Assembly: GCA_003210315.1 (NCBI GenBank)
Contig: QCVQ01000011.1
Span: 1-46,754 of the forward strand
DNA length: 46,754 nucleotides
Direction of reading: 5' to 3'
Source: Synechococcus sp. AG-686-F08
GTDB lineage: Bacteria; Cyanobacteriota; Cyanobacteriia; PCC-6307; Cyanobiaceae
A program made the translations under genes and the position numbers. The notes under the pieces were generated by a model that worked only from the letters and a program-made list of their open reading frames with translations, did no database searches and was not told where the DNA came from. Position 1 is the first letter of the stretch, and every line of letters begins with the position of its first letter. Of the stretch, positions 2,607 to 13,221 are shown piece by piece.

Positions 2607-2758
2607 GGTCTTATTAGTTATGTGGTAACGATTGCTTTTAACGGTTACTCGTCATTGATTCGATGTTGAAACTATTTAGCCCTGGATATTCTGCGAAAGC
2701 ATCATTGCCCGCAAAGTGAAAGCGCAAATGTCATGCTGCAACTGGGTTGGTGTTTTAA

Positions 2759-2830
2759 GCCGATGACCTGACTTGAACAGGCGACCCACGCTTTACGAAA
2801 GCGTTGCTCTACCAGCTGAGCTACATCGGC
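2759..2830 (-). tRNA. tRNA-Thr (anticodon CGU)
   Basis: The reverse strand folds as a 72-base tRNA. The acceptor stem GCCGATG/CATCGGC pairs perfectly, the D-arm has the usual AGCTGGTAGAGC, the anticodon stem is ACGCT/AGCGT with loop TTCGTAA, and the T-arm loop is TTCAAGT. Anticodon CGT (RNA CGU) reads the threonine codon ACG. CCA is not encoded. It stands alone, followed on the opposite strand by the DUF3493-like gene. Confidence 0.95.
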
Positions 2831-9784: not shown

Positions 9785-10306
9785 TCAGTCGCAACCCTGT
9801 ACAGAAATGCGATAGCTGAATCCCGTTGCTCCAGGATCATTGTTGGCGCCAATTCTGAAATTCACTTGGCTAACGGCCTTCCCGGAAGGAGCCTGAAATG
9901 GCCCGAACTGTGCTCCAGTGCCCGTTGGTGGCTTCATAAATTCGTTGACAACTTTCAAATTGCTGCCGTCTGAAAATTTTAGGAAGGCTTCGATTGGGTA
10001 AGAGCCAGGGTTGCTATCCGTTGAATCTGCTGTGAAGAAGAGTTTGTAAGAGCCAAAAGGCTGATTCACAACAAAATCGGTGTTCCAGTTGGTCCGACCC
10101 ACTGCTTTCCCGATGAGGCCCTTTGGGCGCTCCACTTGCTTTTTGACGATGTAGGGCTTTGGACCGTCGCCATTGCCACCGATTGGCATCAGGAACGTGC
10201 AACCCGCTTGAGCTACGGGCGCGTGAACAAAGATGAGAGATGAGCAAGCTGCGACGACGCCGATCGCCGATGCAGGCCGATAGCTTTTGCGTGGGAGTGA
10301 AAACAT
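9785..10306 (-). CDS. Secreted protein of unknown function downstream of grrM
   Basis: This 173-residue protein has a clear Sec signal peptide: a basic start (MFSLPRKSYR), a hydrophobic core and the cleavage-like site VAQA/GC near residue 34-35. The mature part begins GCTFLMPIGG and ends VQGCD, with the two cysteines close to its termini, suggesting a disulfide. It is otherwise rich in Gly, Asn, Phe and Pro, and probably a beta-rich domain. I recognise no family. It begins 17 bases after the grrM stop on the same strand, so it is probably cotranscribed with the cyclophane-peptide genes and may be an export or binding partner. That role is inference from position. Confidence 0.75.
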   Translation of the reverse strand: MFSLPRKSYRPASAIGVVAACSSLIFVHAPVAQAGCTFLMPIGGNGDGPKPYIVKKQVERPKGLIGKAVGRTNWNTDFVVNQPFGSYKLFFTADSTDSNPGSYPIEAFLKFSDGSNLKVVNEFMKPPTGTGAQFGPFQAPSGKAVSQVNFRIGANNDPGATGFSYRISVQGCD

Positions 10307-10323
10307 ATTTGCGGTTGGAATAG

Positions 10324-11472
10324 TTAAGGTGTTTTTACACCCTGATCTTCAATTTGTTCGAGAAGGACTTTGACTGGAATTTGGGTCGAAAAGCGGCAGG
10401 CGCAGGTTTCACTTGAGGCCAAAGTCCCATGTTCCCAGTATTTATTGCTCCCAGTGCCACCGCCGCAGAAGCCGTAGTAATCGCACTGATTGCGACATAG
10501 CTCTGTGCCAATAGTCATGTCTTGAAGCAATTGACGAAATGTCACAGTCTCTGCGGCACCGACGAGGGATTGATCGCGAATATTGCCTAAATTGAAAAGT
10601 CCATATTTTTTGGTTTCAACGGAGAGAAGTTCGGGGTCAAAAGTGGAGAAATTGCCAGCTGAATCCACGCTCAAGATCGAATAGGGGCGATTCATCTCGT
10701 TTTGAAGCAACCTTTTGCCGCCGATCATCATCTCCGTAATTTGATCGAATTCGCGTAGACGAATTGGGAATCCATCTCTTTGATTGCACTCCCAAAAGCA
10801 TTTTAAGAAGTGATGGTATTGCTTTTCTCGGCTTAGTCCTTGCATAGAAGAGGTCGCGTTGACGCCTTCCTGCTCTTCAACATTGAAGCCGAGATCATGA
10901 ATCCCATTGTCCCGAAAAAAGGTGTACATCCTCTCTGGATCTTCCATGGCAGCACCCGTGAGGACTGCGATCGCATGGATGGGAATCCCATGATCTTGAA
11001 GCTTTCGAATGCCGCGCATGGTTAGGGCATGAGAGCCTTTGCCATTGCGAAAACGGCGATGAGAGTCATGGATCTCTTCTGGGCCATCAACGCTGACACC
11101 TACAACAATGCGATTGCGCTTAAAGCATTCACACCAGGCGTCGTTGATCAACGTGGCATTGGTTTGGACATGCTGCTCAATCTGAACCCCTTGCTCCTGC
11201 AGTTCAGCTGTTTGCTCACGCACGATGGCACTCGCCTCGTCGTAAAAGCTGCAGGGCAACGTCAGCGGTTCACCTGCATGCCAAAGGATGGAAAGATGAG
11301 GGCCCCAAAAGGGGCTCTCATACACCCTGTTCAACAAAACAGGTAATTGATTGAGATCGAAGATTCGCCGTTTCTGGCGATCAGGCAAGTAGCAGTAACT
11401 GCAATCGAGATTGCAGAGCGATGTGGCCTGAATCACCAACAGGCCAATAGGTCCGTAATCGGCGTGGTTCAC
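10324..11472 (-). CDS. grrM: Cyclophane-forming radical SAM/SPASM peptide maturase GrrM
   Basis: This 382-residue radical SAM enzyme has the [4Fe-4S] motif CNLDCSYC (C20, C24, C27) at its N-terminus and a Cys-rich SPASM-type C-terminus (ELCRNQCDYYGFCGGG, then ETCACRF) expected to bind auxiliary clusters. GrrM/OscB enzymes install cyclophane crosslinks in Gly-rich precursor peptides, joining an aromatic ring to the side chain two residues later. The start is GTG at 11472, overlapping the grrA stop as GTGA. A longer frame reaching to 11586 is Arg/Trp-rich out-of-frame translation of the grrA repeats and is not part of the enzyme. Its substrate, GrrA, is immediately upstream. Confidence 0.93.
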   Translation of the reverse strand: MNHADYGPIGLLVIQATSLCNLDCSYCYLPDRQKRRIFDLNQLPVLLNRVYESPFWGPHLSILWHAGEPLTLPCSFYDEASAIVREQTAELQEQGVQIEQHVQTNATLINDAWCECFKRNRIVVGVSVDGPEEIHDSHRRFRNGKGSHALTMRGIRKLQDHGIPIHAIAVLTGAAMEDPERMYTFFRDNGIHDLGFNVEEQEGVNATSSMQGLSREKQYHHFLKCFWECNQRDGFPIRLREFDQITEMMIGGKRLLQNEMNRPYSILSVDSAGNFSTFDPELLSVETKKYGLFNLGNIRDQSLVGAAETVTFRQLLQDMTIGTELCRNQCDYYGFCGGGTGSNKYWEHGTLASSETCACRFSTQIPVKVLLEQIEDQGVKTP

Positions 11473-11783
11473 CAATTGGCGAAACCTGCGCGGTAGCCAT
11501 TGGCGAAGCCTCGTCCACCGCCGTTGCCAAAGGCGCGTCCACGGCCACCACCGTTGCCGAAGGCGCGTCCGTTGCCATTGCCCCAAGCTCGGGCAATGGT
11601 CTGGCCGTCGTTGTGATCACTCGTTTCTAAGCGCGCCCAGGCATTCGTTGAGAGCTTTTCAATGCGCTGCTCCAGAGCGTTCCCTAGATCGGGATCGCTG
11701 AGAACAGCAGAGTGAGAGGCGTCAGTCAGGACAGAACTTGACGCAAGAATGGCAGCGATGCTCAGCAGAGTTGTTTTGTTCAT
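11469..11783 (-). CDS. grrA: GrrA-type glycine-rich RiPP precursor
   Basis: The 104-residue precursor has a hydrophobic, signal-like N-terminus (MNKTTLLSIAAILASSSVLT), a middle region resembling other GrrA leaders, and a Gly/Arg/Asn-rich core from about residue 64. The core carries five aromatic-x-Asn motifs: W67-G-N69, F75-G-N77, F85-G-N87, F93-A-N95 and F101-A-N103, then a terminal W104. These are candidate cyclophane sites for GrrM. The copies around RAFGNGGGRG are near-identical at the DNA level. The stop overlaps the grrM GTG start, coupling precursor and maturase. GrrP lies 39 bases upstream. The biological activity of GrrA products is unknown. Confidence 0.92.
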   Translation of the reverse strand: MNKTTLLSIAAILASSSVLTDASHSAVLSDPDLGNALEQRIEKLSTNAWARLETSDHNDGQTIARAWGNGNGRAFGNGGGRGRAFGNGGGRGFANGYRAGFANW

Positions 11784-11822
11784 GGGTGAAGTGAAATGTG
11801 AATGGGGCTAAGAAAGTAAGGC

Positions 11823-12740
11823 TCAGGATCCTTTGGACAATTCAGCTGTGGTTGCAAGCACGATGGTGAAGAAATCGCCGATCATGTTTTCGCTGAGACC
11901 AACTTGACTATCAGGACCAATCCACTTGTTGACAGCAGTACGCACGTCTTGGTTGTCATCCACATAGGCCGTCAGCATGCGACCGATGGCCAAGTTGCTG
12001 TAGTTCAGAAGGTGAGGGGTGGTGTCCGCGACAACACAGCCCACGCTTGATCTTGCATAGGGGAATGTAGGGACCAGGTCAGCGTCAGGAGCTGTGGCTT
12101 TACGACTGGCCTTCAGCCAGAGGCTGTCTCCACCGAGGAATTCGACGGTTCCGTCCTTAAGACCTTCAAGCGCCTCTTTAGGTGACGAGAAGAACTGGAA
12201 CTCGGCGTCATCAACGGATTTGGCCAGTACTGCCGCTGCAGCGGTGTCTTTCACAACACCAATTGTTTTTCCTTTGAGGCTGTCTGGAGTTCCGTCATTC
12301 CCTTTGGGCGCTAAGACACGGACGCCGCTTGTTGCGAAGGGCAAGCTGTAAGTCAGCGTTCTTTGCCTCTCCCAGGTGAAGGCAACGCCACAAGCGATAT
12401 CAGCTTCACCGGATCGAATTTTGTTCAATCCATCCTGGGCAGATTTGATCGAAACAGGTTCGATAACAATGTCGTCGGACTTGTTTTCGGTGGCTGATTT
12501 CAGCTGATTGCGGATGGCATCAAGCACCACAAATGACAGGCCTTCATATTTGCCATCTTTCTCATCAACCATGGGAAGCACATCGTCGAAGACGACTGCT
12601 CTCAACTTTCCAGTCTCAAACACGCTGCCAGTCTGACCTGAAGCTGCTTTTTCACCCGTGGGAGCAGACTTCTGGCAGGCGACGAGCCCAACCGATGTGA
12701 GCGCGATCAGGCCGGTAGCGGCCGCTTTGAGCAAGCGCAT
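11823..12740 (-). CDS. grrP: GrrP: solute-binding-like lipoprotein of the GRRM system
   Basis: From ATG 12740 the 305-residue product begins MRLLKAAATGLIALTSVG with the lipobox LVAC (C22), then a periplasmic type-II solute-binding fold (SBP_bac_3-like). It includes the segments KLRAVVFDDVLPMV, ADIACGVAFTWERQRTLTYS and GKTIGVVKDTAAAAVL typical of amino-acid-binding proteins. No ABC permease or ATPase accompanies it, matching the family described as an orphan substrate-binding-like protein, GrrP, found beside grrA/grrM. The longer frame to 12821 would put 27 polar residues before the signal peptide and is unlikely. It probably recognises the modified peptide or a fragment outside the membrane; this is inferred. 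Confidence 0.88.
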   Translation of the reverse strand: MRLLKAAATGLIALTSVGLVACQKSAPTGEKAASGQTGSVFETGKLRAVVFDDVLPMVDEKDGKYEGLSFVVLDAIRNQLKSATENKSDDIVIEPVSIKSAQDGLNKIRSGEADIACGVAFTWERQRTLTYSLPFATSGVRVLAPKGNDGTPDSLKGKTIGVVKDTAAAAVLAKSVDDAEFQFFSSPKEALEGLKDGTVEFLGGDSLWLKASRKATAPDADLVPTFPYARSSVGCVVADTTPHLLNYSNLAIGRMLTAYVDDNQDVRTAVNKWIGPDSQVGLSENMIGDFFTIVLATTAELSKGS

Positions 12741-12829: not shown

Positions 12830-13102
12830 TCAGCTTGCAGCTTCAGTGCCTCCTACTTCAACAGGAGCGATTTCTTCATAGCGATCACCTGGCATCTCAG
12901 TGCCTCTTTGGGAGGCGTCTTGATTGATGCACGCAGCTTTTTGTTCGTCTGTTTTTAAGTATTGACAAACGCGCGCCCAAAGTTTGCTGCGACTACCGGT
13001 GGCACCTCGACTGAACAAGACCTCGTCTCTTTGATCAGCGTTTTCATTGATTTCGATTTGACAGAGCTCGCATCGGAGTTGCGTTTTTGACGAAACGGTC
13101 AT
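12830..13102 (-). CDS. Small hypothetical protein with a CxxC motif
   Basis: The 90-residue protein starts MTVSSKTQLRCELCQIEIN and has cysteines at C11 and C14, then two more separated Cys (ARVCQYL and AACINQ). Four cysteines in a small soluble protein could bind a metal. I recognise no named domain, though similar proteins occur, as I recall, in marine Synechococcus. I choose the ATG at 13102; an ATG six codons earlier (13120) is possible. It is 89 bases upstream of grrP on the same strand, so it could share its transcript, but the gap leaves room for a grr promoter. Confidence 0.6.
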   Translation of the reverse strand: MTVSSKTQLRCELCQIEINENADQRDEVLFSRGATGSRSKLWARVCQYLKTDEQKAACINQDASQRGTEMPGDRYEEIAPVEVGGTEAAS

Positions 13103-13221
13103 GGCTCTGAAATGAAGCAAGACTGGAACAAACTAATGGCGTGCTCCGTCCACAAGTGAGTTGCCAGGTGATGGTGCTCCGTTCTCCAGAGCGGGGCCAC
13201 TAGCGTGACGATTCTTAAGTG

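Follow-up and report, generated by a model that had tools for sequence, protein, structure and literature searches.

Four consecutive minus-strand open reading frames (ORFs) of Synechococcus sp. AG-686-F08, at positions 9785 to 12740 of a 46,754-nucleotide stretch that we call the window, raise the question of whether they form a complete biosynthetic cluster for a cyclophane RiPP and whether the last of them belongs to it. The first-pass annotation had proposed such a row at exactly this place, with grrP, grrA and grrM followed by a gene for a secreted "extra partner," and the ORF list of the window bears out this layout (Table 1).

Table 1 Features of the four-gene locus (positions in the window)
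Feature	Position	Strand	Description
grrP	11823..12740	-	305 aa; orphan substrate-binding-like lipoprotein; lipobox LVAC, Cys22
grrA	11469..11783	-	104 aa; RiPP precursor; TIGR04260
grrA signal-peptide-like N-terminus	11706..11783	-	Approximately residues 1-26, putative cleavage site; positive in a crude hydropathy test
grrA leader motif LEQRIEKL	11652..11675	-	Proposed GrrM recognition helix (putative role)
grrA core	11472..11585	-	Residues 67-104; five triads, then C-terminal Trp104
grrM	10324..11472	-	382 aa; radical SAM/SPASM cyclophane-forming maturase; TIGR04261
Fourth gene	9785..10306	-	173 aa; secreted type, predicted beta-sandwich; NWNTDF-type motif

Setting of the locus

The length given for GrrM holds if translation starts at the GTG at 11472, which overlaps the grrA stop codon by 4 nt. 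This GTG is most likely the start codon, although the ORF list uses an upstream TTG instead. An overlap of the grrA stop with an RTGA start was found for 54 of 72 GrrA ORFs, a count that we did not use because a C-terminal TGG-TGA produces the overlap automatically. The fourth gene begins 17 nt after grrM. The cluster is flanked on the 5′ side of grrP by an NblD-like ORF and then by htrA in divergent orientation, and on the 3′ side of the fourth gene by rimP, nusA and infB, the latter two identified by eye. The NblD-like ORF (12830-13120, minus strand) scored 76.2 bits against NF053522, just below the cut-off of 80, and a relative of it was found 5′ of grrP in 7 of 19 loci of this htrA-rimP slot, the window counted. 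A tRNA gene (2758-2830, minus strand) was the sole Rfam match above gathering score in the window.

The assembly to which the window belongs, as contig 11, is fragmentary (58.9% complete) and has a single copy of GrrM; the nearest relative of this GrrM among 15 named loci (95%) belongs to a Synechococcus metagenome-assembled genome. Because relatives have these four genes in the same order and at the same position of the chromosome, the arrangement is not due to chance. No promoter-like sites were found (shuffled sequence gives 2.3), and terminator-like sites were not in excess, with 6 sites versus 4.6 (standard deviation, 2.4) from shuffles. A hairpin is present 3′ of the fourth-gene stop codon in the window and in the relatives L062 and L125, and with mismatches in L126. 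It lacks a T-run and is not a general feature of the loci, and we therefore do not claim a terminator.

The first three genes form a GRRM cluster

The proposed identities of the first three products were confirmed by searches with the NCBIfam models TIGR04262 (GrrP), TIGR04260 (GrrA/OscA1) and TIGR04261 (GrrM/OscB). GrrP scored 383.6 bits (curated cut-off, 190), GrrA 87.3 bits (31) and GrrM 595.5 bits (310). GrrM also matched the Pfam Radical_SAM family (PF04055) with 65.9 bits. It has the CX3CX2C motif at Cys20/24/27 and further cysteines in the SPASM region, at positions 326, 330, 336 and 359. For comparison we used 66 unique loci, i.e., those with non-identical GrrM among the 68 that score above 400 bits, and CX3CX2C is kept in 65 of them. 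A SPASM pattern demanding C-x-C was present in 15 of the 66 GrrMs and was judged too strict. Locus L075 (8721-11141; single-cell genome AG-673-F03), with grrM and grrP each in several frames through decay or sequencing error, has a broken grrM and falls below the score threshold.

The P-A-M gene order of the window is the same as in its relatives. With the maturase and its cysteines, a precursor with triads, and grrP adjoining grrA, the cluster is a genuine, intact and complete member of an already recognized RiPP type (GRRM, triceptide). It differs from the GRRM system in the secreted-type protein encoded after grrM and, as to triad number, has five in GrrA, whereas the number is higher in many clusters outside the slot, reaching 16 at most.

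A literature search on GrrM/GrrA, OscB, cyclophane RiPPs and picocyanobacterial RiPPs, mostly of sources available without subscription and apart from the primary triceptide papers, found no account of GRRM function among the papers listed. The words triceptide, cyclophane, ranthipeptide and SPASM do not occur in the available part of PMC10783134, on RiPPs of marine Synechococcus. Likewise, the accessible portions of the exoproteome papers PMC4949707 and PMC5839243 hold nothing on the cluster genes under the locus tags queried, which were guesses from position. A phage-borne origin was considered and rejected: the fourth protein had no match in phage records, and the GrrM matches in 21 phage records were all below 60% identity, with five listed at 23 to 27%.

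The GrrA core follows a Trp/Phe-x-Asn grammar

According to the part of the review PMC11002830 available to us, OscB, a GrrM-family enzyme, has [W/F]-x-Asn as its reported substrate motif and crosslinks residue i to i+2, joining Trp C7 to Asn or Asp and Phe C4 to Asn. The GrrA core of the window contains W67-x-N69, F75-x-N77, F85-x-N87, F93-x-N95 and F101-x-N103. We counted such triads in the last 45 residues of 31 non-duplicate GrrAs found by profile (34 ORFs minus three from two duplicate loci). Asn is present at +2 of 90 of 91 Trp residues and 70 of 73 Phe residues, and of none of 34 Tyr residues. The 160 W/F triads compare with a mean of 26.5 and a maximum of 40 in 500 shuffles. Another 38 GrrAs were selected by the motif itself, so the claim rests on the unbiased count of 31. 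In all 72 ORFs (34 profile-found and 38 motif-picked), 591 of 689 W/F residues belong to triads; of the 98 that do not, 79 lie so close to the C-terminus that there is no residue at +2. By eye, W-x-Asp is also visible in GrrAs of other families.

The aromatic-to-Asn cyclophanes that had been predicted for this cluster are thus supported by the family scores, the OscB precedent, as described in the accessible text of the review, and the W/F-x-N grammar. GrrM would form C-C bonds from each core Trp or Phe to the Asn two residues further on, giving a product with up to five three-residue rings and a mass change of about -10 Da. Like the triceptides made by OscB and its relatives, as covered by the available part of PMC11002830, the system pairs Trp/Phe-x-Asn motifs with a SPASM-type radical SAM enzyme that falls in one NCBIfam family with OscB. 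It differs from the triceptides described there in that Tyr in the core falls outside the motif, and the crosslinks in the Synechococcus strain are predicted from sequence. In Prochlorococcus MIT 0701 (L076, 9069-9963), two successive grrA genes, one rich in W-G-N and one in W-K-N, are followed by one grrM.

The GrrA leader resembles a signal peptide

A signal-peptide-like start was found in 71 of 72 GrrA ORFs, compared with 170 of 1440 shuffled leaders and 3 of 66 GrrMs, using a crude hydropathy rule (a positive n-region and a hydrophobic 12-mer near any Met, every Met of the ORF being tried). The sole exception is an ORF cut by a contig end. In 59 of 72 leaders, a LEQRI-like motif precedes the core by 28 to 55 residues, versus 9 of 3600 shuffles, and the 13 other GrrAs have apparent variants, by eye, such as SLDSRI. 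Both counts include duplicates and the 38 motif-picked ORFs.

GrrM would recognize the GrrA leader, probably via the LEQRI helix. The signal-peptide-like start makes stapling before Sec export the likely route, with the stapled Gly-rich chain most likely exported whole by Sec and then cut by signal peptidase. In many RiPPs, the leader serves for recognition, and the hydrophobic N-terminus might do only that, being removed in the cytosol or by another system with no Sec export of GrrA; the passing of some shuffled leaders by our crude test fits this reading as well. However, the near-constant presence of such a start among GrrAs argues against it, as do the lipoprotein signal of the neighboring GrrP and the lack of an exporter or peptidase among the four genes, even though the Do-type protease gene htrA adjoins them on the opposite strand. 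We consider a leader without a role in Sec export unlikely and favor export.

GrrP is a substrate-binding-like protein

At 65 of the 66 unique loci, grrP lies upstream of grrM in the same orientation; the remaining locus, L067, is truncated by the end of its contig. GrrP matched Pfam SBP_bac_3 (33.8; cut-off, 26.4), and its best solved relative is BvgS (4q0c; E 2e-14). Its description as a solute-binding-like lipoprotein holds, as to the lipoprotein, for the GrrP lineage of the window; in other lineages, such as L070 and L129, a lipobox was not found. Cys117, Trp123 and Cys235 are invariant in all 68 GrrP ORFs, duplicates counted. Arg125 and Asp205 align with the Arg and Asp of amino-acid-binding proteins that we take to be the carboxylate- and amine-binding residues. 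Each is kept in 58 of the 68 ORFs. Since both are present in only 48, GrrP of the window among them, a common amino-acid ligand is doubtful, and free-amino-acid binding is unsupported as a family trait.

GrrP thus shares the SBP_bac_3 match with type-3 amino-acid substrate-binding proteins and a likeness to BvgS with periplasmic sensor domains of that type. It differs from these systems by its invariant Cys117 and Cys235, its varying pocket residues, and the lack of any gene for a permease or a sensor kinase in the four-gene row. With a type-3 substrate-binding fold and no adjoining permease, GrrP would most likely act outside the cytoplasm, holding or sensing either the product or a small ligand.

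The fourth protein belongs to a conserved secreted-type family

The fourth protein had no match in NCBIfam or Pfam up to an E value of 0.1. It has 649 homologues (120 listed), and an alignment of 44 of those listed with the window sequence shows conservation of Cys36, Cys172 and the NWNTDF-type motif in the family. An AlphaFold2 model (mean pLDDT, 78.5) predicts a beta-sandwich, and we regard the protein as a member of a secreted-type, putatively beta-sandwich family. Compared with jelly-roll beta-sandwich folds (carbohydrate-binding modules [CBMs], GOLD domains and capsid jelly rolls), its identity is 3 to 12%, with none standing out, and the comparison points to no function. When 45 members were searched against Pfam to an E value of 5, two families matched one member each (E 0.13 and 0.2), neither of them a CBM, so that there is no sequence match to a CBM family. 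Relatives were also found in seven other cyanobacterial families, and cyanobacteria without grrM have relatives as well. Recurring neighbors of ~730 aa next to distant relatives were considered and rejected: of 10 neighbor proteins scanned, 9 were unrelated housekeeping enzymes, transporters or regulators according to Pfam, and 1 had no match.

Linkage of the fourth gene with grrM

At 12 of the 66 unique loci, grrM is immediately followed by the fourth gene, and at two more the gene is 3.7 kb away. The distribution depends on the htrA-rimP slot, recognized by the presence of htrA or rimP in the sequence retrieved for a locus, with closely related strains unweighted. Among 19 slot loci, the gene is adjacent in 12, displaced in 2 and lacking in 5, whereas it is adjacent in 0 of 47 loci elsewhere. 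Its absence from L064 and L103 is not secure since their sequences end less than 600 bases past grrM. This tally rules out the fourth gene as a universal GRRM component. The "extra partner" of the first-pass annotation is present directly after grrM in the window, but its status as a partner is weakened.

In a tree of 39 rows, 20 of them unlinked copies, the copies adjacent to grrM, 12 in all, group together in a single clade (96/93); two non-slot copies (L115 and L116) mislabeled as linked in the tree are both outside it. The 17-nt gap is constant in the window, L062, L074, L122, L125 and L126, and in the genus of the window, G075, G101 and G123 (99% complete) have a single copy, located beside grrM. 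In G034 and G112, the slot lacks the cluster and has the fourth gene as remnants only. These features argue for a true partner of the stapled peptide that would be secreted, act as its carrier, receptor or anchor, and have been recruited a single time in marine picocyanobacteria. In contrast, L114 keeps an intact fourth gene in the slot without grrPAM, and L113 may do so too, although its contig ends beside the gene. In L130, the gene is split by an insertion of ~10.5 kb, while P, A and M look intact. G141, a 99% complete genome of the genus, is one of the five with the cluster but no fourth gene in the slot (L136), and has a weak partial match elsewhere only. Among the slots without the cluster, L110 and L111 have remnants of the fourth gene and L112 has remnants of P and M. 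The losses thus point in both directions, to partnership in some genomes but to independence in others. Given the absence of adjacency outside the slot as well, we consider membership in a marine pathway possible but rather doubtful.

The other explanation, to which we lean, is that the fourth gene is an unrelated resident of the slot with a role of its own, its proximity to grrM being a by-product of a gene-trading site. It is consistent with the slot-specific adjacency, the relatives in other cyanobacterial families, the lack of a common pathway among their neighbors, and the varied gene content of the slot elsewhere, although same-strand placement 17 nt from grrM and linkage across 12 loci are more than expected of a random neighbor. 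Outside the family, in draws of 244 genomes, relatives of the fourth protein were found in 18, grrM over cut-off in 18 and both in 11, with the pair far apart on one contig in 5 and on separate contigs in 6. Such co-occurrence is suggestive but confounded by ancestry, as 7 of the 11 belong to one family. We therefore regard the fourth gene as a companion within the slot that is possibly co-transcribed, rather than a core member. It resides in the htrA-rimP slot of marine Synechococcus and Prochlorococcus, where co-expression with the cluster may occur, and is not a general part of the GrrP-A-M system.

Contents of the slot

In Synechococcus WH7803 (L073), a GH18-CBM2 protein and a CBM2 protein are encoded between htrA and grr. 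From their positions and domains, we take them to be ChiA (WH7803_2068) and WH7803_2069 as named in the available part of PMC10651935. Such GH18 chitinase-like and CBM2 proteins, present at 1861-7149 in L073 and 4083-7676 in L066, link the WH7803 chitinase locus with the grr slot. The slot of Prochlorococcus MIT 0701 contains genes for a sulfatase and an FGE-type protein. The insertion in L130 (4300-15500) carries genes for a multicopper oxidase, an RND efflux pump, an HlyD-type protein and a response regulator; the 3′ part of the fourth gene there shares its reading frame with an upstream ORF, by eye a membrane-bound one. This gathering of extracellular functions in the slot is a hint as to role, not proof.

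Discussion

We are fairly confident that the locus encodes a complete GRRM cluster with Trp/Phe-Asn stapling and likely Sec export of the product, with GrrP outside the cytoplasm and the fourth gene as a slot resident. More speculatively, the GRRM leader might be a working Sec signal peptide and the maturase might staple before translocation, yielding a small multi-ring extracytoplasmic structural or signal protein that GrrP would capture. This product might, in marine Synechococcus and Prochlorococcus, also meet the beta-sandwich protein with the NWNTDF motif, in a slot whose other contents are genes for extracellular polymer degradation, such as chitinase. We put this full scenario forward as an improbable one.

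The fourth protein represents an uncharacterized, strongly conserved, secreted-type cyanobacterial family without a Pfam model. For the GRRM cluster itself, two sharp predictions emerge from the near-perfect W/F-x-N grammar, which excludes Tyr, and from the signal-peptide-like leader. As a relative of the cluster is present in Synechococcus WH7803, in which CRISPR deletions have already been made according to the accessible text of PMC10651935, its role is directly testable in that strain.
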